Positions 3,360 through 37,197 of a stretch of 64,000 bases of DNA are shown piece after piece. Position numbers and translations under genes: made by a program. Positions within the stretch are counted from its first letter, which is position 1. Each line of letters starts with the position of its first letter. This stretch comes from a virus: positions 33,276 through 97,275 of the IMG/VR virus record IMGVR_UViG_3300044612_000719; one strand, given 5' to 3'. The notes under the pieces were generated by a model, which was given only the letters and a program-made list of their open reading frames with translations, made no database searches and was not told the origin of the DNA.

Positions 3360-3538
3360 TACGCACCACCACCATCGTCTACAAAGGAAAAATTAAGACT
3401 TGAATCGGAAAATCCTCCATCAGACACAGTCTCTGCAAGAACTTTCCATACCCCATCATAATATAGCCAAACCCTTCCACCTGATACGTATTCATCTCCA
3501 GAAGATGGGGAGTTAGGGAAATCAAGTGGTGTAGCCAT
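3359..3538 (-). CDS. 59-residue FPxSP-module fibre protein
   Basis: A short gene read directly from the sequence: MATPLDFPNSPSSGDEYVSG, then VWLYYDGVWKVL and an acidic, Gly-rich tail. It is a free-standing copy of the module FPxSPxxxDxYxxGxxxWxYxGxxWxxL that forms the N-terminus of the fibres at 6884, 7258 and 8466. It may be an adaptor that docks a fibre or a stand-alone fibre cap. The stop overlaps the next ATG. Confidence rests on the module match and perfect coupling. Confidence 0.72.
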   Translation of the reverse strand: MATPLDFPNSPSSGDEYVSGGRVWLYYDGVWKVLAETVSDGGFSDSSLNFSFVDDGGGA

Positions 3539-26610: not shown

Positions 26611-26747
26611 GTTTCAAGTATAGGGCTATTTGGGCGAGGTGGGTGGTCCGTCGGATTTTTGAATGGGGCTATTGGGCAGTTGAGCGTTGGGTGGGGCCTC
26701 TGTCCTACCCCCAGCCCCGCCACCACGGCTCGCTTAACCATGGGGGG

Positions 26748-26826
26748 TTATCCACAGCCCGCACCCATACTGGGCATGGCTTTGCTGAGTTATCCACAGG
26801 TACTCCTGTGTACATCCTGTGGATAC
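26748..26826. other. DnaA-box cluster, candidate replication origin
   Basis: Two perfect TTATCCACA boxes (26748-26756, 26790-26798) and one inverted near-match TGTGGATAC (26818-26826) lie within 80 bases. The second and third are arms of a 10-base inverted repeat (TATCCACAGG, 26791-26800; CCTGTGGATA, 26816-26825). Two GTGGAACAT copies follow (26828, 26841). TTATCCACA is the classical DnaA consensus and is close to the actinobacterial form. The site lies exactly where coding strand switches. Origin function is inferred. Confidence 0.6.
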
Positions 26827-26862
26827 CGTGGAACATCGCTGTGGAACATTGAGGGCGAACCC

Positions 26863-26901
26863 ACGTTCGTATGACGTTCGTCACGTGTGACGTTCGTCAC
26901 G
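26863..26901. repeat. iteron-like direct repeats with palindromic core
   Basis: Two perfect 14-base copies of TGACGTTCGTCACG (26872-26885 and 26888-26901) are spaced 16 bases apart, and the ACGTTCGT core occurs a third time at 26863. Each copy has inverted arms (TGACG..CGTCA). A CATTGT/ACAATG inverted pair follows at 26903-26926. They sit next to the DnaA boxes and could be iterons for a replication protein or operators for a repressor controlling the divergent operons. Confidence 0.55.
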
Positions 26902-27690
26902 CCATTGTTACAACTTCATGACAATGTGCCCGAAATGCTTGACAAATGGAAAATGCCCTCAGACGCATCAGGAGCCATTCTCAGAGGAGGAGAGGCGGGT
27001 GCAAGGGGTCAAGGCGGACACAGGTACAAAGTACCCTCAGAGAGCGCCTCGTATGCCTAGGAATGGGGCTATGAGCCTTACGGTGCATGGGTTTGCGGGG
27101 TATGGGTAGGTTGTACACATGCCCCACAAGCCCCCGTATTGCTATCCACTGCACCATCGCTCCATTCCACGTATTGCACGCAACACAGCGCATCCTGAAG
27201 CGTCTCAGAGCATTCTGCAGTGTTCATTGATCAATTGAATTCTCTGCCCATTCCATGCCTTCTCCTGCTTCTCCTGTATCTCCTCCTCCATCCGATGGAT
27301 GGCTGGTCGTTGGGGGCGCCCAATTCCAGCCCTAGATCCGCTCCAGCCCTTACGGGGCTTGGCTCGGAAGATTCTCAGGAATTGTTTGAATTTGGTCGTT
27401 GCTATTCGTACACCCATCCACTAGCCTCCAGTCAGGAGTTGCGTTGCGGTACGGGGCGCAGTCTCCTGAGGTTCCTTGAAAATTGAAGAGCGCCCGAATT
27501 GCTTCGGCAAAAATGCACGCATGCATGTGGCACGTCCCCGAGTCCGCTCGGTCGGCTCGTGCCTTGCAGAGATGGCTTCAACGGATCCATGCATGCCCGC
27601 CACGGGGGAATTGAACAACAGTCCCTCACGGCGCATTACTCAACGGCTCAAACCGTTCGCTGACTTCGGGCACATGGTTCAAATTCCTCA
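26902..27690. other. strand-switch region without convincing genes
   Basis: About 790 bases between the leftward tagged operon and the rightward early operon. Small open frames exist (for example 26918-27109, starting MTMCPKCLTNGKC), but none has a ribosome site, a paralogue or coupling, so I do not call them. I found no tRNA. Segments such as CCCTTACGGGG near 27348 can form short hairpins. It probably holds the promoter of the rightward operon; no clear -35/-10 pair was recognised. Confidence 0.5.
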
Positions 27691-27816
27691 GCGTCACGGG
27701 TCATCTTCGGATGGCTCGTGGCGCTCATAGAGCACTGGGGTTCATCCCCTGACTCCAGTGCTGTATGAGCGCAGAGCGCTCCGCTGGCAACCAGCCAGCG
27801 CAGTCCTGAGGAGGAC
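27691..27816 (+). promoter_or_regulatory. structured leader L0
   Basis: Hairpin A is a 15-base-pair stem (27691-27705 with 27710-27724) capped by a TTCG tetraloop. Hairpin B (27724-27738 with 27755-27769) has 14 of 15 pairs. Hairpin C is CGCTGGC-AACCA-GCCAGCG (27782-27800). Hairpin D, GTCCT-GAGG-AGGAC (27803-27816), contains the Shine-Dalgarno sequence and ends 7 bases before the ATG at 27824. The same A-B-C-D order recurs before later genes. Confidence 0.75.
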
Positions 27817-27823
27817 ACACACC

Positions 27824-28342
27824 ATGAAAGCAACACGACAGCAACTACTCAATCTCGGAGCCAGCATCCTGAGCACTGCCTATGAAGGCGGGTCTTGCGG
27901 AATGGCTTCATGGGCAGTTGCCAATGGCACCTACAAGTGGGGCACGGAGAAGGGCGAAGGCGAATTGCACGGCAACGAGCACTACGCATCAGTCACCGTG
28001 TACGACACCGAAGCGTGCGAGTTGGTGGAAGACGAAGCCGAATTGGCGAAGTTGACCGATGACGATGGCTTCAATGGCTGGGGCGGGTTCTACCGCTTCG
28101 GCAAGCCACTCGTGATCAATGAGTCCATCATTGCTGACTTCATTGAGAAGATCGGCACAGGTGAGTTCAATCAGGACAATGTGCCTGACTACGGTCAACT
28201 GTCAATCAAGCGGGTGAGTGCCCTTGCAGGGTGCTACCTGTTCGGTGAAGACGCCATTGACGAATTTGAGTCCGACAATGACTGCATCGTGTCTGACACC
28301 ATCGTGCAGTTCATCCTGCTCGGTGAGGTCACATACGGCTGA
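27824..28342 (+). CDS. unknown early-operon protein
   Basis: 172 residues starting MKATRQQLLNLGASIL. It is acidic and soluble, with 'YEGGSCGMASWAVANGTYKW', 'DDDGFNGWGGFYRFGKPLVI' and a C-terminal helix-rich part. No recognised domain. I start it at 27824 because the leader hairpin D with GAGGAGG lies just upstream; an earlier in-frame Met lies inside hairpin B. First gene of the rightward operon and the first of nine with a folded leader, suggesting an early role against the host. Confidence 0.8.
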   Translation: MKATRQQLLNLGASILSTAYEGGSCGMASWAVANGTYKWGTEKGEGELHGNEHYASVTVYDTEACELVEDEAELAKLTDDDGFNGWGGFYRFGKPLVINESIIADFIEKIGTGEFNQDNVPDYGQLSIKRVSALAGCYLFGEDAIDEFESDNDCIVSDTIVQFILLGEVTYG

Positions 28343-28348
28343 TCAATC

Positions 28349-28427
28349 CCCCAGCGCCTAGGGCGTGGCTCTTCAATGAGCACTGGGGACTGTGAGCAAC
28401 CGCTCACTACAACGACCTGAGGAGGTC
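28349..28427 (+). promoter_or_regulatory. structured leader L1 (compact three-way junction type)
   Basis: The outer stem CCCCAG/CTGGGG (28349-28354, 28383-28388) encloses CGCC-TAG-GGCG and GCTC-TTCAAT-GAGC. It is followed by ACT, hairpin C GTGAGC-AACC-GCTCAC (28392-28407) and the ribosome-site hairpin GACCT-GAGG-AGGTC (28414-28427). The layout, the junction bases TG and A, and the TTCAAT loop are identical in leader L2, although most stem bases differ. Confidence 0.75.
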
Positions 28428-28433
28428 AACACC

Positions 28434-28841
28434 ATGAACACACTCACCAAACTGTACGAGATTCGTTTCTCGGGAACGGTTGAATGCGATATGGAGCCGA
28501 TCATGCACGACATTGCAGTCGCAATTGATAAGGGCACGCTGGAAGAGAGCGACAAGGCGTTTGCCGAGTTCGTAATGGCTCCACAGCGGATCGTGGTCAA
28601 GCGTCAAGGTAACAACACCTACGCAGTGGATCTGTCCATTGAGGGCGTGATCGCATTCGCCAAAGAGGTTGCCTATCGCAAAGAAAATGCGATTGACATC
28701 CGTACCGAGGAGGGCAGTTATGACCGAAACGGTTACAACTACCACACCAAAGTGATCCGTCAACTTGACACCGCATTGAAGGGCGCCAACAAGGTGCTCG
28801 CCAGTGTCGGTATCGCTCCAGTGACTTCATACTGGAATTGA
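28434..28841 (+). CDS. unknown early-operon protein
   Basis: 135 residues from the ATG at 28434, set by the leader hairpin 6 bases upstream. The start MNTLTKLYEIRFSGTVECDM and 'VVKRQGNNTYAVDLSIEGVI' indicate an alpha/beta protein; the C-terminal part (YDRNGYNYHTKVIRQLDTAL) is helical. No domain recognised. Part of the folded-leader operon, so expression should be individually controlled at translation. Nothing indicates a membrane location. Confidence 0.78.
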   Translation: MNTLTKLYEIRFSGTVECDMEPIMHDIAVAIDKGTLEESDKAFAEFVMAPQRIVVKRQGNNTYAVDLSIEGVIAFAKEVAYRKENAIDIRTEEGSYDRNGYNYHTKVIRQLDTALKGANKVLASVGIAPVTSYWN

Positions 28842-28846
28842 GTGAT

Positions 28847-28941
28847 TGAGTGACCTAGTCACTCACCCCTAGCGCCTCGGGCGTGCCGATTCAATTCGGA
28901 CTAGGGACTGGGCAAATAGCCCTCGGAGCAGAGGAGGCTCC
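28847..28941 (+). promoter_or_regulatory. structured leader L2 (compact three-way junction type)
   Basis: An extra hairpin TGAGTGAC-CTA-GTCACTCA (28847-28865) precedes the junction. The outer stem CCCTAG/CTAGGG (28867-28872, 28901-28906) encloses CGCC-TCG-GGCG and CCGA-TTCAAT-TCGG. Hairpin C is GGGC-AAATA-GCCC (28910-28922). The ribosome-site hairpin is GGAGC...GCTCC (28925-28941) with AGAGGAG in its loop. Compared with L1, stem 2 changes GCTC/GAGC to CCGA/TCGG and keeps pairing, a strong sign of selection for structure. Confidence 0.75.
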
Positions 28942-28946
28942 ATACC

Positions 28947-29483
28947 ATGAAAACATCAGAGATAAAGCAGATAATTGCAAAGGATCCGAACGCTGTGTTT
29001 CGCATTGGCGGACGTGGTCGGTACACGCACTACGGCTCAATCACCAAGATTGAGGAGAAGGTCGTGGACACCTACAGCGCATGGGGTCGTAAGTCAGGCA
29101 CCCGTGTTGATGTGCGATTCACAGTGCGTTACGAGTACTTCACTCGTGGCGTTGAGGCTCAGTTTGGTTACCCCGAGAAGTTGCCTTCAGTGATACTGGA
29201 CGGAAACTCGTGGACTAAGCCACGTGACATTGAATGGCACGTAGCGGACTTCGGTATGACCATTGAGGAGTACGTAGCAAAGACTGATGCTGAAGTGAAG
29301 GCGGATTGGCAAGCCAAGAAGGACGACCAATACGCAAAGCAACAGCAGGTCAATGCGATCATCCGACACATCAGTAGCCCAACGGTTACCGATGCCGAGT
29401 GGAACGAACTCAACGATGATCTAGAGCGACTCAGTGTTCAGACATTGCAATTAATCAATCAGAAGATCGCATCACTTGTGTGA
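28947..29483 (+). CDS. unknown early-operon protein
   Basis: 178 residues: MKTSEIKQIIAKDPNAVFRI, then 'GRGRYTHYGSITKIEEKVVD' and 'WGRKSGTRVDVRFTVRYEYF', with a Lys/Glu-rich C-terminal helical half (EVKADWQAKKDDQYAKQQQ). The N-terminal half resembles small beta-barrel nucleic-acid-binding folds by its alternation of Gly and basic residues, but I cannot name a family. Start set by the ATG after leader L2. Confidence 0.78.
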   Translation: MKTSEIKQIIAKDPNAVFRIGGRGRYTHYGSITKIEEKVVDTYSAWGRKSGTRVDVRFTVRYEYFTRGVEAQFGYPEKLPSVILDGNSWTKPRDIEWHVADFGMTIEEYVAKTDAEVKADWQAKKDDQYAKQQQVNAIIRHISSPTVTDAEWNELNDDLERLSVQTLQLINQKIASLV

Positions 29484-29489
29484 TGTGGT

Positions 29490-29597
29490 CGGGAGCATCA
29501 CGGGTTCGCCCGTGGTGCCCTCACAGTGCATCGGCGTTGTGTCGGTGCATTGTGAGGGCATACAATTGCCCGTTCAACTAACAGACCCGAGGAGGTC
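29490..29597 (+). promoter_or_regulatory. structured leader L3
   Basis: Hairpin A is GCATCACGGG-TTCG-CCCGTGGTGC (29495-29518). Hairpin B has CCCTCACA paired with TGTGAGGG (29518-29525, 29551-29558) and a longer inner stem. An outer stem CGGG/CCCG (29490-29493, 29569-29572) can close both. The ribosome-site hairpin GACC...GGTC (29584-29597) ends 4 bases before the ATG at 29602. Confidence 0.75.
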
Positions 29598-29601
29598 AAC
29601 C

Positions 29602-29856
29602 ATGGATGCAAGTATTCACAAAGTAACTGGGTTTCGGATTGAGAAGTCCGATGACCCACGACTCAAGACAATTGATCTCGTGATTCAATACGAGGATTTG
29701 TCGTTTGTTCGTTCCCAATATGAGAACGGCAGTGAGTCATTCGGTTACGCAAAATTGGAGTCCACGATCACGCTGTTCATCAGTGACACCGTTGACATGG
29801 ACGTGGTGGTGTGGCAAGCAATTGCAAACCTCACTTCCGATCTTGCCAATAGGTGA
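29602..29856 (+). CDS. unknown early-operon protein
   Basis: 84 residues: MDASIHKVTGFRIEKSDDPR, then LKTIDLVIQYEDLSFVRSQY, 'ESTITLFISDTVDMDVVVWQ' and a short C-terminal helix. Alternating hydrophobics suggest a beta-rich soluble protein. No relatives recognised. Start at 29602 is set by leader L3; longer upstream frames would run through the folded leader. Coding density and the leader support a real gene. Confidence 0.75.
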   Translation: MDASIHKVTGFRIEKSDDPRLKTIDLVIQYEDLSFVRSQYENGSESFGYAKLESTITLFISDTVDMDVVVWQAIANLTSDLANR

Positions 29857-29871
29857 GTAATCCGCAGTGGG

Positions 29872-29978
29872 CAGTCATGGCGCAAGCCATGGCGTGCTCG
29901 GAGTGCACTGATCCCCCATCGGTGCATTCCGAGGACGCAAGTCCATTCACATTCCCTAACTGAAACTTGAGGAGGTTT
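29872..29978 (+). promoter_or_regulatory. structured leader L4
   Basis: Hairpin A: CATGGC-GCAA-GCCATG (29876-29891), extendable, with a GNRA tetraloop. Hairpin B: 16 continuous pairs (29897-29912 with 29918-29933) around CCCCC. Hairpin C: GGAC-GCAA-GTCC (29933-29944), also GNRA-capped. Ribosome-site hairpin AAACTT-GAGG-AGGTTT (29963-29978) abuts the ATG at 29980. Confidence 0.78.
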
Positions 29979-29979
29979 T

Positions 29980-30696
29980 ATGGGAGCAATAACACCAAAG
30001 CAACAGGCATTCATTCGCACGATGCTCTTAGAGCGTGCTGTCACACTCGGTCTTGATGAGGCTGGTGTTGACCAGTACCTCGTAGATCAGAACGTGAATG
30101 CATTGTCAACTAAGGATGCTTCGCTCGTCATTGATGCGATCAAGAAGATTGAGATCAAGCGAGTGGGCACCGAGCACCTGCCGAAGGGTGATCGCACCAT
30201 CGTCAACAAGATCGCCAAGCCATGCCAACTGTGCGGACACACCGTGCAGATCGGTCATGGCTGGAGCGTTCAAGTTGCCAGTGGCTGGCAGACATTCCAC
30301 AAGGCTGGTGAGTGTTCAGCCGAGGTCATCGCCAAGCCAGTAGATGAGCAATCGCTCTTCGCTGATGTCAAGGATGGCTTCTATGCGTTGCAGTCAACGG
30401 GCACCAATGATCTCGTGTTCTATGCGATCAAGACCAACAAGGGCTACCACAATGCGAGCCTGAAGGGTCAACGTGGCATGTACATCGTGGTCGGCGGTCA
30501 CGCTGACGAGAAGTTGCGTGGCGAGCGCTTGGTCAATTCAATCAAGCGCATCACGTCACTCAGTGAGGATGAACGCAAGCAAGCAATGACGCTGTACGGT
30601 CAGGAGATCGGGCGCTGTTGTGTGTGCGGTCGTCATCTCACTGATGAAGCAACACGCAAGGCTGGTATCGGCAACGACTGCGCAAGCAGGTTCTAG
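29980..30696 (+). CDS. zinc-finger protein with DUF6011-like C-terminus
   Basis: 238 residues. The N-terminal helical part (MGAITPKQQAFIRTMLLERA) is followed by a first Cys/His set (KPCQLCGHTVQIGHG...FHKAGEC). The end has a second zinc finger, 'IGRCCVCGRHLTDEATRKAG' plus 'IGNDCASRF', typical of DUF6011 in actinobacteria and their phages. The N-terminal 'TPKQxAFIxxML' helix is common in phage proteins fused to this finger. Probably nucleic-acid binding. Confidence 0.82.
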   Translation: MGAITPKQQAFIRTMLLERAVTLGLDEAGVDQYLVDQNVNALSTKDASLVIDAIKKIEIKRVGTEHLPKGDRTIVNKIAKPCQLCGHTVQIGHGWSVQVASGWQTFHKAGECSAEVIAKPVDEQSLFADVKDGFYALQSTGTNDLVFYAIKTNKGYHNASLKGQRGMYIVVGGHADEKLRGERLVNSIKRITSLSEDERKQAMTLYGQEIGRCCVCGRHLTDEATRKAGIGNDCASRF

Positions 30697-30701
30697 GTAG
30701 T

Positions 30702-30807
30702 CACGTCACGGGCACACGCTCGTGGCGTGCTCACATTCCATGGGAGCGATCTCGTGGAGTGTGAGCACGCAAGTGCAATTCACAATTCCAATAGACCTGA
30801 GGAGGTC
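30702..30807 (+). promoter_or_regulatory. structured leader L5
   Basis: Hairpin A: CACGTCACGGGC-ACAC-GCTCGTGGCGTG (30702-30729), 12 pairs. Hairpin B: 17 continuous pairs (30729-30745 with 30750-30766) capped by a GCGA (GNRA) tetraloop. Hairpin C: GCAC-GCAA-GTGC (30765-30776), the covaried counterpart of GGAC-GCAA-GTCC in L4. Ribosome-site hairpin GACCT-GAGG-AGGTC (30794-30807) lies 5 bases before the GTG at 30813. Confidence 0.8.
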
Positions 30808-30812
30808 AGACC

Positions 30813-32342
30813 GTGAGTAATCAATTAGAGCAATTAAATACATTGCTTGGTTCACTGCATCGCATACCACCAGCAATCATTGCTGATCCTGCGTTGCTTG
30901 AATTGAGCAGTGCACATGACGGCGAATGCCCAGTGGAACTCGCTGTTCCGCTGTTCCCATTCCAACGTGCTGGTGTCGCTTATGCATTGAAGCAGAAGCG
31001 AGTGATCATCGGTGACGAGATGGGACTCGGCAAGACACCGAGCGGTATCGCTGTTGCGGTACAGGCAGTCAATGAGAAGCACAAGGTGCTCGTAGTAGTG
31101 CCACCATCGCTTCGCATCAACTGGCTTCGCTCATTCAAGATGTTCGCACCATGGCTCAACGTGGCTGTGGTGACGGGCAACAAGGTGGGCGCTCTGCCGA
31201 AGGAGCCAGTAGTCATCATCGGTGACTCCAACATTGACGCTTGGTCAATCAAGTTGGCTGGCAAGTTCGGTGCGCTCATCGTTGACGAGGCACATCGTGC
31301 CAAGACCGAGAGTGCTGGACGCACCAAGGGCATCTCATTCATTGCGAAGTCAATCCCTGAGGAGGGATACGTCACGCTGTTGAGTGGCACCATCATCGTC
31401 AATCGTCCGAACGAATTGATCAGCCCGCTGAATATTCTCGGCAGGCTTGACCGAGTGTTCGGTGGCAAATCAGCGTTTCGCTTCCGCTACTGCGATCCCA
31501 TTCACAATGGCTGGGGTTACGTGTACAACGGTGCGAGCAACACCACTGAGTTGAACGAGAAGTTGCGAGGCACGTGCTACGTGCGCCGTAACAAGTCGGA
31601 CGTGCTCACCGAGTTGCCTGCCAAGCGCCGTGCACAAGTAGCGACCGAGATCAGCGACAGCGATCTCAGCGCATACATGCACGCCGAGAATGACTTCCGT
31701 GACTTCGTTATCGCCAATGGCGGTGCTGAAGCATGGCAGAAGGCATCCAAGGCTGAGACCATCACACGCCTCAATGCACTGCGCATGTTGCTCGGTGTTG
31801 CGAAGGTGCCATACGTGGTGGATCACGTTGAGCAACTAGTTGCTGAAGGTGAGAAGGTCATCGTGTTCGCACATCACAAGGATGTCATCGCACGCTTGAC
31901 TACAGCACTCACTCCGCATGGCGTGGTGCGTGTCATCGGTGGCATGAGCGATGAAGCCAAGCAAGCATCAGTGGATGCATTTCAGAATGACCCCGAGGTC
32001 AAAGTGTTCATCGGGCAATTCCAATCTGCTGGTGTTGGTCTCACGCTCACAGCGTCATCGCACGTTGTGTTCGCTGAGATCCCATTCACGCCTGCCGAAG
32101 CCACGCAGGCTGAGGATCGTGCGCACCGCATTGGTCAGACGTCAAGCGTTCTCGCTTGGTGGATGATCGGCGTGGGTAATAACCCTGACATCCCGTTGCT
32201 GGACGATCGGATGTGGGCATTGCTCAACAGCAAGCACGAGGTCGTCTCCAGTGTTCTCACTGGACAGGGCGAAGACATGGGAGCCGAGGGTGGAAGCATC
32301 ACTCAGGCACTCATTGAAGCAATTGTCGGCAACGGCATCTGA
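30813..32342 (+). CDS. SNF2-family DNA-dependent ATPase/helicase
   Basis: 509 residues from a GTG set by leader L5. Motif I (Walker A) GDEMGLGKT at 67-75, motif Ia 'KVLVVVPPSLRINW', motif II DEAH at 158-161, motif III 'LLSGTIIVNRP', a C-terminal RecA-like domain with 'KVIVFAHHKDVIARL', 'VFIGQFQSAGVGLTLTASS' and motif VI 'QAEDRAHRIGQ'. It is SMARCAL1/HepA-like, remodelling forked or annealed DNA or protein-DNA complexes. A second, divergent SNF2 protein is encoded at 56517-58064. Base use looks somewhat more GC-rich than in the left half. Confidence 0.93.
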   Translation: MSNQLEQLNTLLGSLHRIPPAIIADPALLELSSAHDGECPVELAVPLFPFQRAGVAYALKQKRVIIGDEMGLGKTPSGIAVAVQAVNEKHKVLVVVPPSLRINWLRSFKMFAPWLNVAVVTGNKVGALPKEPVVIIGDSNIDAWSIKLAGKFGALIVDEAHRAKTESAGRTKGISFIAKSIPEEGYVTLLSGTIIVNRPNELISPLNILGRLDRVFGGKSAFRFRYCDPIHNGWGYVYNGASNTTELNEKLRGTCYVRRNKSDVLTELPAKRRAQVATEISDSDLSAYMHAENDFRDFVIANGGAEAWQKASKAETITRLNALRMLLGVAKVPYVVDHVEQLVAEGEKVIVFAHHKDVIARLTTALTPHGVVRVIGGMSDEAKQASVDAFQNDPEVKVFIGQFQSAGVGLTLTASSHVVFAEIPFTPAEATQAEDRAHRIGQTSSVLAWWMIGVGNNPDIPLLDDRMWALLNSKHEVVSSVLTGQGEDMGAEGGSITQALIEAIVGNGI

Positions 32343-32388
32343 CCACTGGCGCTCGGCGCCTTCATGGTCGGTGCCTGTAGCGACATCC

Positions 32389-32522
32389 GAAGCGTTTAGT
32401 CCTCACTGGACGCTTCACAGTGCATCACGGGCGCAAGCCCGTGGTGTTCTCACACTCCATTGGCATATCGTTGGTGGAGTGTGAGAACATCACCCGATGT
32501 TCAACTAGCCCTTTAAGGAGGG
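32389..32522 (+). promoter_or_regulatory. structured leader L6
   Basis: It is preceded by GAAGC...GCTTC (32389-32416) with an inner GTCC/GGAC. Hairpin A: CATCACGGGC-GCAA-GCCCGTGGTG (32423-32446). Hairpin B: 13 Watson-Crick pairs (32447-32459 with 32475-32487), extendable by wobble pairs. Hairpin C: AACATC-ACCC-GATGTT (32486-32501). The ribosome site AAGGAGGGG can pair as CCCT/AGGG (32509-32522). The 184-base gap after the helicase gene holds only this element. Confidence 0.75.
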
Positions 32523-32526
32523 GATC

Positions 32527-32766
32527 ATGAAAGTAAGTCACGCAATTAAATTATTGAGTGAGATCAATCCTGACGAAGAGATTGCTATCTCTTGGTGGGA
32601 ATCAAACCTGTTCACCATTAGTGACAATAACGAACCACTACCAGCAGACTCAGAACTGTGGCTCAAAGCAGTCTCAGTGTTTGATGCCAACGGTGGTTAT
32701 GACAGTGTCAACCAGTTGGTGTGGGATTACCTCAATTACGACATCAAGCAAGAAGGAGAGTTCTAA
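32527..32766 (+). CDS. small acidic protein, unknown
   Basis: 79 residues: MKVSHAIKLLSEINPDEEIA, then ISWWESNLFTISDNN, ending in DYLNYDIKQEGEF. Proteins starting 'MKVSxAIxxLSxxxPDEEI' occur in many actinophages and bacteria (a short alpha/beta fold of unknown function). Its stop overlaps the next ATG (TAATG), so the two are co-translated under leader L6. Net charge is strongly negative, as in several operon neighbours. Confidence 0.78.
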   Translation: MKVSHAIKLLSEINPDEEIAISWWESNLFTISDNNEPLPADSELWLKAVSVFDANGGYDSVNQLVWDYLNYDIKQEGEF

Positions 32767-33152
32767 TGAGCAACAACGAAACACGACCTACTGAGGGGTC
32801 AATCATCAACTTGGTTGACGTAGAAGGGAATCAATCAAAAATGAAAGTATCGGGAATCGGCACACCAATTGGTGCGTGGGCAATCATCCAATGGAAGGAC
32901 ACGCAACAGGAGGACGAGGTGTACATCTCGTTCGGCACGTGGAATGAGAACGAGTGGGGCGGTGAGTTTGACTCACTGGGCAACCGAGACGATGAGGTCT
33001 TCTTCTACTGCGAAGACGGCGAAGAGGAACTCAAGGCGCTCGTGGGCAGTAGCAACGAAGACTTCGTGGTCTTGTCGTACGACATTGACTACAGCATCCC
33101 ATTGGTACTCGCTGATATGGACGAGCCAGTCTTCGCTGAAGACGGGGAATGA
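32766..33152 (+). CDS. acidic protein, unknown
   Basis: 128 residues from the ATG that overlaps the previous stop. 'GSIINLVDVEGNQSKMKVSG' and 'AWAIIQWKDTQQEDEVYISF' suggest a small beta-barrel. The rest is highly acidic (DDEVFFYCEDGEEELKALVG). DNA-mimic or inhibitor proteins of phages are often this acidic, but nothing more specific supports that. Translated by coupling with 32527-32766. Confidence 0.75.
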   Translation: MSNNETRPTEGSIINLVDVEGNQSKMKVSGIGTPIGAWAIIQWKDTQQEDEVYISFGTWNENEWGGEFDSLGNRDDEVFFYCEDGEEELKALVGSSNEDFVVLSYDIDYSIPLVLADMDEPVFAEDGE

Positions 33153-33269
33153 TCGGGAGCATCACGGGCTACGGCTCGTGGTGCCCTCACAGCACATAAA
33201 TTCTGTTTGTGTGTTGTGAGGGTACAGAGTGCCCGATAAATTAGTTAATCCCTATGACCTGAGGAGGTC
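33152..33269 (+). promoter_or_regulatory. structured leader L7
   Basis: The outer stem ATCGGG/CCCGAT (33152-33157, 33232-33237) closes hairpin A, GCATCACGGGC-TACG-GCTCGTGGTGC (33159-33184, UNCG tetraloop), and hairpin B, 17 continuous pairs (33184-33200 with 33206-33222) around TTCTG. GGGTAC/GTGCCC (hairpin C) competes with the outer stem. Ribosome-site hairpin GACCT-GAGG-AGGTC (33256-33269) lies directly before the ATG at 33272. Confidence 0.8.
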
Positions 33270-33271
33270 TT

Positions 33272-33631
33272 ATGTTAGAGCCAGTAATCACGATGACCGT
33301 TGAGCAATGGGAAGAGCAATACGAACCCTTTGTTAATCACCTAGATGCGGATGCATCATGGGCAACCGATGACGCCAACGGCATCATGTTTGAGACATAC
33401 GGTGCCGAAGTTGATTATGTGTTTGCCCGACCGCTCAACCACACATGGACATATGTGGACGGCGAAGAAGGCACATACATTCTTGCTGGACGCCATCTCG
33501 TAAATCGCATCGGTTACTTCGTAACTGCGGTGCCATGGAAGGATGACTTCAACACCAAGTATGAAATTCAAGTAAGTGCCAATGATGATTATTACCAAAC
33601 AGTGTTAGACCTTGAAGGAGGTAACCAATGA
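33272..33631 (+). CDS. acidic protein, unknown
   Basis: 119 residues: MLEPVITMTVEQWEEQYEPF, with 'FARPLNHTWTYVDGEEGTYI' and 'GYFVTAVPWKDDFNTKYEIQ'. Similar 'MTVEQWxExYxPxxNHLD' proteins are found in phages of Gram-positive hosts, with no function known. Its stop overlaps the next gene's ATG. Likely soluble and folded as alpha/beta. Under leader L7 together with the two following genes. Confidence 0.76.
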   Translation: MLEPVITMTVEQWEEQYEPFVNHLDADASWATDDANGIMFETYGAEVDYVFARPLNHTWTYVDGEEGTYILAGRHLVNRIGYFVTAVPWKDDFNTKYEIQVSANDDYYQTVLDLEGGNQ

Positions 33632-33858
33632 AACAACCAACAACATACATCACCACACTTGCTGTTGAAGTAGGCATGGAAGTAGAACTACTTGTGCAGA
33701 TATCTCCGAAGGAGACATTTGAATACGCAGGCATCGTCTCACACATCAGCGAGACCGAGTTGTCAATGTGGACTACAGACAGTCCGAACGACACCTACGA
33801 GAACGAGCGTGAGATTGACATCCCACTCTCAAAGATCATCTCAGTGGACGTGTTCTGA
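33628..33858 (+). CDS. small beta-rich protein, unknown
   Basis: 76 residues: MKQPTTYITTLAVEVGMEVE, 'LLVQISPKETFEYAGIVSHI', 'DIPLSKIISVDVF'. The alternating pattern looks like a small SH3- or OB-like barrel. ATG overlaps the previous stop (ATGA) and its own TGA overlaps the following ATG, so it is translated only by coupling within the L7 transcript. No family recognised. Confidence 0.72.
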   Translation: MKQPTTYITTLAVEVGMEVELLVQISPKETFEYAGIVSHISETELSMWTTDSPNDTYENEREIDIPLSKIISVDVF

Positions 33859-34109
33859 TGATCCTCGGTGGGTACCCAGTAGTGCGCAGGGACTTGGTGG
33901 AGGCGGATCTTTTGATCCCCTCCGTCAATACCAACGAGTACTACGGGGACGAGCAACTGTCCAAGATGAAGTACATCGGCAGTGTCAATGAGCAGTTTGA
34001 AGATGACGACTCGGGCGCTTACATCAAGTTCTACGCACCTGAAGGTCATGTCGTGTATCTGTACAACATTGACTTAGATTGGATTGAAACATCGTTAAGC
34101 GAGTCCTGA
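33858..34109 (+). CDS. small acidic protein, unknown
   Basis: 83 residues: MILGGYPVVRRDLVEADLLI, 'DEQLSKMKYIGSVNEQFEDD', 'HVVYLYNIDLDWIETSLSES'. It starts one base before the end of the preceding stop (TGATG). Acidic and apparently soluble. Last gene of the L7 group; leader L8 follows within 15 bases. No recognised motif. Confidence 0.72.
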   Translation: MILGGYPVVRRDLVEADLLIPSVNTNEYYGDEQLSKMKYIGSVNEQFEDDDSGAYIKFYAPEGHVVYLYNIDLDWIETSLSES

Positions 34110-34123
34110 GAGGCTCGTACGAA

Positions 34124-34243
34124 GGGTGACATCAGCCTCGGCTGGTGTCATCCCGTGAGCACTCCCCTTGATCCGCCTTGGGGAGTGTTCACGGGGTGAA
34201 GCAACCCTGCAACACCCATCAACAACAATGATCTGAGGAGGTC
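34124..34243 (+). promoter_or_regulatory. structured leader L8
   Basis: Hairpin A: 13 pairs (34124-34136 with 34141-34153) capped by CTCG. Hairpin B: CGTGAGCACTCCCC paired with GGGGAGTGTTCACG (34154-34167, 34180-34193), extendable at its base. Ribosome-site hairpin GATCT-GAGG-AGGTC (34230-34243) is 2 bases before the ATG at 34246. It is the last leader of the series; later genes have ordinary Shine-Dalgarno sites. Confidence 0.75.
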
Positions 34244-34245
34244 AT

Positions 34246-35812: not shown

Positions 35813-36835
35813 ATGTCAAGAGAAACCAGCCAGTGGCTCAACCAGAACGTTCTGGTGGGCTTTACATCCAAGCGTGGAAACGCATGGCACTACAAGTCAA
35901 CCGATCAGGGCACCGAGCCAAACCATTACGAGCAGGCAATCCCTGTTGAGGACGTCCGTCGTCGCTTGTTCAACTGGCAAGCAATTGAAGCGCCAGTGTT
36001 CGTGCAGGTTCCACAACTGTCAACGTACAAGTATGTTGAGCAGACCGACCGTAAGGCAATCGTGCGCAGTGACAACAATGCTGTGCTCGGTATGTTCAAA
36101 GACTCATATCAGATCCACCAGTACGACCAGTGGTTGATCGGCACCATCAGCAACATCATTGATGACAGCAACCTTCAGATCGGTTCTGCGGGCTTGCTTC
36201 GCAACGGTGGTGTGGCTTGGGTCAGCATTGAAATGCCTGAGACGGTCACCACCAAGGCAGGTTTTGACATCCGTCCACACTTGCTTGGCACCACGAGCCA
36301 CAACGGCACCATTGCAACCACCTTCAAACGAGTGGTCACTGCGGTGGTCTGCGACAACACGCTCGCTGGAGCGCTCGGTGAGCAGGGATCAGAGTTCAAG
36401 ATCCGTCACAGCAAGTTCAGCAACGGACGCATTCAAGACATCCGTGACGCCCTTGGCATCATTCATGCCATGGCAGATGAAGCAAGCGCAGAGATTGAGC
36501 GCTTGGCATCAATCACAGTTGCTCAGTCCGAATGGGATGCCATCGTGGAGCGCTTGATTCCAGTAAGCCTTGAGTTGGACGCTCGCCCACAAGCGATCAG
36601 CCGTGCTCAGAACAAGCAAGAGTTGGTACGCCACCTCTACAAGCACGACCCACGTGTTGAGCCTTGGGCAGGAACGGGTCTCGGAGTGTTGCAGGCATTC
36701 AATACATGGAGCCAGCACTTCAGTGGCAAAGACGACTCACGTGTGGAGCGCAATGCGTTCAATGCAATCAACGGCAAGACCGATGAGTTTGACCGTCAGG
36801 TTTTGCGCATCATGAATGACGTTGTCTTTGCATGA
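35813..36835 (+). CDS. DUF932 / phage TIGR03299-type protein
   Basis: 340 residues. It begins MSRETSQWLNQNVLVGFTSK, with 'AWHYKSTDQGTEPNHYEQAI' and 'PVEDVRRRLFNWQAIEAPVF', then 'CDNTLAGALGEQGSEFKIRH' and a helical end. This is the layout of DUF932 proteins encoded by many plasmids and phages (a relative of plasmid-conjugation and phage LGT proteins). Biochemical role not established. A ribosome site AAGGAG precedes the ATG; the gap upstream carries a promoter candidate. Confidence 0.85.
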   Translation: MSRETSQWLNQNVLVGFTSKRGNAWHYKSTDQGTEPNHYEQAIPVEDVRRRLFNWQAIEAPVFVQVPQLSTYKYVEQTDRKAIVRSDNNAVLGMFKDSYQIHQYDQWLIGTISNIIDDSNLQIGSAGLLRNGGVAWVSIEMPETVTTKAGFDIRPHLLGTTSHNGTIATTFKRVVTAVVCDNTLAGALGEQGSEFKIRHSKFSNGRIQDIRDALGIIHAMADEASAEIERLASITVAQSEWDAIVERLIPVSLELDARPQAISRAQNKQELVRHLYKHDPRVEPWAGTGLGVLQAFNTWSQHFSGKDDSRVERNAFNAINGKTDEFDRQVLRIMNDVVFA

Positions 36836-37197
36836 ACCGTTGGGATTACTACGATGATGCGGGGGAGTCAAATCCCCCGCTACATTGGGAACTCACAATC
36901 AACAGAGACATCATAGATCCGTTGCCATTCCCCGATAGTGGTGTGTGGCGTGCGCATTCATCGTGTCGTCACGAAGATGTGTCTACCTTCTTTGCTACTG
37001 GCGAAGCGGGTTACACACGAGAAATAAGAAGTAAGCGATTGGAAGCCATTTCAATCTGCAAAGGCTGTCCAGTGTCATTCCAGTGCCTACGCTATGCCGT
37101 CAAGAACGACATGCGCTGGGGCGTGTGGGGTGGCAAGGATATGCAGTCGCTTGAAAAGGTTGAGCGTATTAAGTTACGCAAGATCTTCAATAAGTGA
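36832..37197 (+). CDS. WhiB-like transcription factor
   Basis: 121 residues. The four Fe-S cysteines are C45, C76, C79 and C85 (C...C-x2-C-x5-C), followed by the G-V-W-G-G turn at 97-101 and a basic helix (KVERIKLRKIFNK). WhiB proteins bind sigma factor region 4 and DNA; phage versions can shut off or redirect host transcription. ATG overlaps the upstream stop (ATGA). Its end overlaps the convergent glycosyltransferase gene by 24 bases. Confidence 0.9.
   Translation: MNRWDYYDDAGESNPPLHWELTINRDIIDPLPFPDSGVWRAHSSCRHEDVSTFFATGEAGYTREIRSKRLEAISICKGCPVSFQCLRYAVKNDMRWGVWGGKDMQSLEKVERIKLRKIFNK

Follow-up and report, generated by a model that had tools for sequence, protein, structure and literature searches.

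Swappable structured RNA leaders of two folds at the gene boundaries of a viral operon

In phage T7, the RNase III sites are repeated intergenic hairpins that cut the early polycistronic transcript into gene units, while in phage HK022 the put sites, two adjacent hairpins a few bases apart, stand at the start of the early transcripts, about once per operon, and act on RNA polymerase. Clustered hammerhead ribozymes have been found to flank phage genes in phages and prophages, and were proposed to cut transcripts into operon- or gene-length mRNAs; three such arrays cleave in vitro (Perreault et al. 2011, PMC3088659). Cluster K mycobacteriophages carry a 13-base start-associated motif (SAS), with AGGAG between complementary ends, before many non-structural genes, and about half of these motifs have an upstream inverted repeat (ESAS), an imperfect 17-bp repeat whose changes fail to preserve RNA pairing (Pope et al. 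2011, PMC3203893). By position, SAS and ESAS are the nearest described pattern to the elements reported here: nine intergenic leaders, L0 to L8, in an operon of the uncultured virus record IMGVR_UViG_3300044612_000719 of IMG/VR. The window, that is, the whole stretch of 64,000 nucleotides analysed, is the right part (33,276–97,275) of this 97,275-base record. On balance, the leaders appear to be swappable RNA-processing modules that cut the operon RNA at gene boundaries.

The operon lies on the + strand at 27.69–34.24 kb of the window, and is called early on the authority of an initial annotation only, which was made from the sequence letters. Each leader is positioned directly 3' of a stop codon and directly 5' of a Shine-Dalgarno site and start codon; put sites differ in this respect, as the leaders here stand before every gene group and adjoin the ribosome site. 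All nine folded + strand leaders that the initial annotation had described were found where it placed them, with folding z-scores against dinucleotide shuffles of −8.7 (L0), −3.5 (L1), −2.2 (L2) and, for L3 to L8 in order, −5.6, −5.7, −7.4, −7.0, −7.5 and −6.3, compared with a mean of −0.4 (range −1.7 to +1.0) in 18 control windows between 34.6 and 40 kb. They also end at 34.24 kb as annotated, gene starts beyond 34.25 kb having ordinary ribosome sites. Related viral contigs provided 82 distinct type 1 and 42 distinct type 2 sequences, the two types being defined below. The loci in these contigs are numbered L006, L010, L024 and so on (G013 comprises L205, L204 and L028), and their leaders were assigned to types through model matches and regular expressions. 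Many of the loci overlap the same records, and all counts given therefore refer to distinct sequences, or to gene starts within loci that partly overlap, and should not be read as independent events.

The nine leaders are not the single family initially annotated, but two unrelated folds: type 1 (L0 and L3–L8) and type 2 (L1 and L2). The annotated order of hairpins A, B, C and D is correct for type 1, in which the quoted tetraloops and the C stems quoted for L4 and L5 are also present, and is wrong for L1 and L2, where C and D come after a three-way junction. In type 1, hairpin A (9–14 bp) is separated by 0–3 bases from hairpin B (15–20 bp), C starts within the last bases of B, and a linker leads to D. 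Hairpin A contains a conserved U-G pair in 73 of 82 sequences, within RUCA/UGGY, and in hairpin B the pairs CUC/GAG and CA/UG are conserved; a conserved single-stranded core is absent from type 1. The type 2 junction reads CCC-N3 [C-N3 UNR N3-G] UG [N3-4 UUCAAU N3-4] A N3-GGG-AC. Its parts are a closing helix P1 of 6 bp, P2 of 4 bp with a three-base loop, the UG, P3 of 3–4 bp with the loop UUCAAU, the A, the 3' strand P1', and AC, then hairpin C, a linker and D. No helix of the junction exceeds 6 bp, and across the 42 distinct copies UUCAAU, UG, A and AC are invariant or nearly so, giving about a dozen invariant unpaired bases. Sequence comparison thus reveals in type 2 the conserved unpaired core expected of a self-cleaving ribozyme. 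A covariance model of hairpins A and B (R1) matched, on the + strand of the 97-kb record, L0, L3–L7 and one further site at chance level, its weaker minus-strand matches being to the same palindromic elements, whereas a type 2 model (R2) recovered exactly L1 and L2 from the whole record. L8 has no R1 match, yet retains the AUCA/UGGU motif of type 1.

In related phages, the same gene can be preceded by either of these two folds or by a third, the type II hammerhead. Leader type varies from phage to phage in nine gene families. The gene orthologous to that in the L2 slot follows a type 1 leader in L017, L018 and L027, while type 2 precedes the DUF6011 gene of the L4 slot in L169 and the helicase gene of the L5 slot in L039. 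Gene family 15 is led by type 2 in L006 and by a type 1 variant in L022, where the proteins are 94% identical, and by hammerheads in L024 and L205, with proteins 57–59% identical to those of L006 and L022. Leader position is more constant than the gene that follows: the L0 leader is always first, with varying genes behind it, the L8 type is always last in the relatives' operon, where it precedes either gene family 10 or, in other phages, family 8, and three unrelated gene families are found behind slot L6. The L3-led gene and one hammerhead-led gene resemble each other at the N-terminus, but hhalign gave no support for their homology.

In the more distant relatives L024 and G013, the L0 leader is followed by seven and eight type II hammerheads, respectively, each with the same D hairpin behind it, and then by a type 1 leader before the helicase gene; L039 holds type 1, type 2 and a hammerhead within one operon. 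The core (CUGAYGA, GAAA, UC) is complete in each of the 13 distinct hammerheads listed, and Rfam Hammerhead_II matches six related records with E-values of 3.6e-7 to 2e-4. The type II hammerhead core (CUGANGA, GAAA, UH, three helices) is found in L024, L039, L173-type relatives and L205, and is absent from the leaders of the window; pattern matches in L202 and L203 are due to chance. A second phage group (L173, L174, L177, L178, L183, L193) has type 2 elements and hammerheads just 3' of stop codons, with plain Shine-Dalgarno sites and no D. In L193 (positions 3367–3470), as well as in L173 and L178, a sigma-70-like promoter (TTGACA, 17 bases, TATTAC) comes after type 2, where a start codon would otherwise follow at once, so that the element looks like the 3' terminus of the transcript unit upstream. 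A leader of two long hairpins, which is neither type 1, type 2 nor hammerhead and is left unclassified, stands before the DUF6011 gene in hammerhead-bearing relatives (L024:5930, L025:2266, L028:1410).

Both types in the window share a 3' module of small hairpin C, an A-rich linker and the covarying Shine-Dalgarno hairpin D in which all nine leaders end. The C stem has at least 4 bp in each of the 81 type 1 leaders examined, and the linker is 46–54% A and 7–10% G. At the centre of D is CCUGAGGAGG, flanked by covarying arms whose outer pairs reach 94% and 86% complementarity, where 70% and 47% would be expected, with A-U, G-C and U-A variants at one pair and G-C, U-A and A-U at the next. D is found at 177 of 181 led starts, compared with half of the starts that have no leader, and probably adds a gate or insulator for the ribosome. 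The SAS motif, GGGATAGGAGCCC, lies 3–7 bases before the start codon and differs from CCUGAGGAGG between covarying arms, so D is not an SAS; similarly, pairing is unsupported in ESAS and strongly supported in the leaders, which sets the two apart. A common D raises the prospect of one RNA-binding protein exerting coordinated translational control, either through D, which covaries and is present in all nine leaders, or through hairpins A and B, with their conserved U-G within RUCA/UGGY and their CUC/GAG and CA/UG pairs. We consider this distinctly unlikely, as D is the only recognition site common to type 1, type 2 and the hammerheads, the type 2 elements and hammerheads of the second phage group have plain Shine-Dalgarno sites in its place, and no candidate regulator was found. 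The initial annotation had envisaged one regulator or processing enzyme acting on all nine leaders. The regulator does not fit folds that share only the 3' module, where any common regulator would have to act; the processing enzyme comes close to the explanation preferred here.

That the leaders act as RNA, and from the + strand, is evident from their variation. In the type 1 seed, 99.2% of helix cells are paired, with double changes at 12 of 24 pairs. Covariation was assessed on 77 distinct cores using a re-implementation of the R-scape null, in which Fitch substitutions are re-dealt along a FastTree tree; six pairs reached E ≤ 0.05, all within the proposed structure, and a further significant pair, 13:14, was excluded as too close. 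In type 2, all helix cells (100%) are paired and 84 are double-change cells, compared with 24 ± 4 in shuffles, and the 42 distinct copies stand against one match in 1.9 Mb of shuffled sequence. Of the 82 hairpin A loops of type 1, 50 belong to the GNRA class and 20 to the UNCG class (70 together), the two interchanging freely. The annotated preservation of pairing despite sequence change is therefore borne out, with covariation well above the tree-aware background; the same genes in related phages do carry folded leaders, where unfolded ones would have told against it.

The type 1 helices contain 316 G-U against 7 A-C appositions. As a DNA inverted repeat would favour neither, this points to selection on the + strand RNA, and it bears on whether the leaders are operators or promoters, bound by proteins as DNA, that happen to be inverted repeats. 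The ESAS repeats of cluster K were interpreted in this way (PMC3203893). For the leaders such a role is barely conceivable, and as the main function it is refuted by the strand asymmetry, to which are added the tetraloop swaps, the restriction of the elements to one strand, and promoter- or terminator-like sites inside each leader that do not rise above chance. The compensatory changes and G-U wobbles bear equally on the idea that the leaders are recombination boundaries, short homologous blocks through which phages exchange genes. This would account for operon positions that stay fixed, L0 first and L8 last, while the genes behind them change; however, recombination requires identity and not pairing, and the changes reflect selection on an RNA fold, which makes this role very unlikely. 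Gene exchange through the leaders may occur as a by-product.

At slots L3, L4 and L7, comparison with L006, L010 and L020 gives leader identities of 90–100%, whereas the gene behind the leader shows 56–73% identity at its third codon positions, with the exception of L020 at slot L7, where the following gene is itself 94% identical. Leader L3 is 93–100% identical to its counterparts in L006, L010, L020 and L023, with third codon positions at 71–76%, and L4 is 97–100% identical to those in L006, L010 and L020, with third codon positions at 56–61% (L163 was left out of these comparisons). L5 has only 65–72% identity to its relatives, with pairing intact.

Self-cleavage is the sole known biochemical activity among the three interchangeable domains, so the simplest reading is that all three cut at gene boundaries; for types 1 and 2, we infer both the cutting and its agent. 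Each leader would comprise a 5' cutting domain (hairpins A and B in type 1, the junction in type 2, or the type II hammerhead in sister phages) and a 3' part of constant layout, and the long operon transcript would be cut just 3' of each stop codon. The upstream message would then end in a tetraloop hairpin, and the downstream one would carry one or two stable hairpins at its 5' end, ahead of an insulated, mildly gated ribosome site. The predicted hammerhead 3' product consists of stem I, a CUGAYG-AGU-CRUCAG hairpin (core bases and a conserved CAG tail), a linker and D, the same layout as B-C-linker-D of type 1. Hammerheads would cut themselves. For type 1, given the lack of a conserved unpaired core, the most likely agent is a double-strand RNase of the host, similar to RNase III. 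Unlike the T7 sites, the leaders here swap with ribozymes and share a module that contains a Shine-Dalgarno hairpin, and a long duplex is absent from type 2. Type 2 may be self-cutting or cut by another factor; its invariant unpaired bases make it a ribozyme candidate. A less probable reading is that type 2, and possibly type 1, is a self-cleaving ribozyme of a class not yet described, which takes the place of hammerheads before phage genes; whole operons would then be cut into cistrons by RNA alone.

Several points weigh against processing at the leaders. For types 1 and 2 it is we who infer the cutting. An RNase III site has a long uninterrupted duplex of about two helical turns; the B helices of type 1, at 15–20 bp and with A adjoining at 9–14 bp, are short for a classical site, and the conserved U-G of hairpin A (73 of 82) suggests a recognition finer than plain double-strand cutting. 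The hammerhead matches, perfect in their core, score below the curated Rfam cut-off, and the window's own phage has no hammerhead (RF02276, whole record). A closer parallel to the hammerhead fold would be a type 1 closing helix, formed by a 5' GGG and the 3' arm of C; this was plausible in L7 and L4, and was unsupported when tested (cognate 10.95, non-cognate 10.76, standard deviation 0.33). Furthermore, the common D hairpin indicates translation control in the design, and cutting may be perhaps half of the function.

Alternatively, the leaders might insulate without cutting: the 5' fold would shield the ribosome site from upstream coding RNA and terminating ribosomes, and would keep the A-rich linker unpaired, so that it could serve as a standby site next to the Shine-Dalgarno hairpin. 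The fold need only be compact, and a hammerhead would also do, in keeping with the interchangeable leader types, their positions directly 3' of stop codons, the A-rich and G-poor linkers (46–54% and 7–10%) and the D hairpin at nearly all led starts. We regard this as possible, if rather unlikely, as it leaves unexplained the intact catalytic cores of 13 out of 13 distinct hammerheads as well as the invariance of UUCAAU, UG and A in type 2. Nor would it predict leaders at L3, L4 and L7 that remain 90–100% identical while adjacent third codon positions drop to 56–73%, or the type 2 elements of L173, L178 and L193, which precede a promoter and not directly a start codon. Cutting at gene boundaries remains the preferred explanation of the leaders.

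The leader that opens the operon, L0 (type 1; 27685–27816, all positions on the + strand), consists of A at 27691–27724 with a UUCG loop, B at 27721–27772, the C region, and D at 27803–27816. Its 5' CCTCAG (27686–27691, in the region 27685–27693) is complementary to CTGAGG in D, a complementarity also present in the L0-type leaders of the distant relatives L024, L039 and L205. Judging from the sequence, the leader could switch between this long-range pairing, which would hide the ribosome site, and hairpin D. Upstream of L0, positions 26611–27690 hold no convincing gene over about 1.1 kb, separate divergent gene blocks, and likely contain the operon promoter. The type 2 leaders follow. L1 (28349–28427) has its three-way junction at 28349–28388, C at 28392–28407 and the Shine-Dalgarno hairpin D at 28414–28427, and L2 (28867–28941) has its junction at 28867–28906, C at 28910–28922 and D at 28925–28941. 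The D stem of L2 is unlike that of L1, with AGAGGAGG identical.

Among the remaining type 1 leaders, L3 (29495–29597) comprises A at 29495–29518 (UUCG), B at 29518–29558, C at 29556–29571 and D at 29584–29597. L4 (29874–29977), before the DUF6011 gene, has A at 29874–29893 (GCAA), B at 29897–29933, C at 29933–29944 (GGAC-GCAA-GTCC) and D at 29964–29977, while L5 (30704–30807), before a SNF2-type helicase, has A at 30704–30727, B at 30727–30768, C at 30765–30776 (GCAC-GCAA-GTGC) and D at 30794–30807. L6 (32422–32523) is formed from A at 32422–32447 (GCAA), B at 32446–32488, C at 32485–32502 and D at 32509–32523, and L7 (33159–33269) from A at 33159–33184 (UACG), B at 33184–33222, C at 33220–33234 and D at 33256–33269. 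In L7, a 5' ATCGGG offers an alternative pairing with the CCCGAT 3' of C. The diverged L8 (34124–34244) closes the series, with A at 34124–34154, B at 34154–34194, C at 34194–34207 and D at 34229–34244.

On the 5' side of L8 lies an extra hairpin (34092–34122, + strand) that spans the upstream stop codon and scores 41 bits with Rfam RF00515, against a gathering score of 54. The bulge is present, and AGUCCUGAGAGGCU matches exactly what we take to be the PyrR-binding-loop consensus, ARUCCNGNGAGGYU. At least nine related contigs retain the hairpin at this final leader, with a varying flanking stem. No phosphoribosyltransferase-family protein is encoded in the records tested, and therefore a host PyrR would have to act. 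A gene for a WhiB-like regulator (PHROG 472 and others) at 36832–37194 suggests that the host is an actinobacterium.

The initial annotation had called for covariance models and searches of phage genomes and Rfam. Rfam 15 gave no match at the gathering threshold in the window or in 23 related loci, and at loose thresholds the window's leader region gave only the PyrR-like match and microRNA noise. Searching 50,697 phage records by blastn with L3 and with the type 2 leader L1 returned no match. The exact type 2 pattern has 8 matches in 84,980 cellular species (257 billion bases), about chance level by our own estimate; no closing helix is present in L197, the one match inspected. Types 1 and 2 are thus two structured RNA families that were previously uncatalogued, while the operon system itself is akin to ribozyme- or RNase-processed phage operons. 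The annotated view that no described phage operon has so many structured leaders overlooks the T7 RNase III sites, as well as the clustered hammerheads (PMC3088659) and SAS/ESAS (PMC3203893). The clustered hammerheads resemble the present system in that close relatives of this phage carry type II hammerheads at the corresponding slots; they differ in that the leaders of the window are two other folds, absent from Rfam 15 and coupled to a Shine-Dalgarno hairpin.

Types 1 and 2 offer enough natural variants for direct structural work, and the leaders are a promising place to seek a new self-cleaving ribozyme. The replacement of ribozymes and new elements by each other before the same gene constitutes a natural replacement experiment, through which the old proposal that clustered phage ribozymes cut polycistronic RNA into gene units becomes directly testable. 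The module as a whole, a cutting fold, a hairpin, an A-rich linker and a gated ribosome site, would be a natural counterpart of the ribozyme insulators of synthetic biology.

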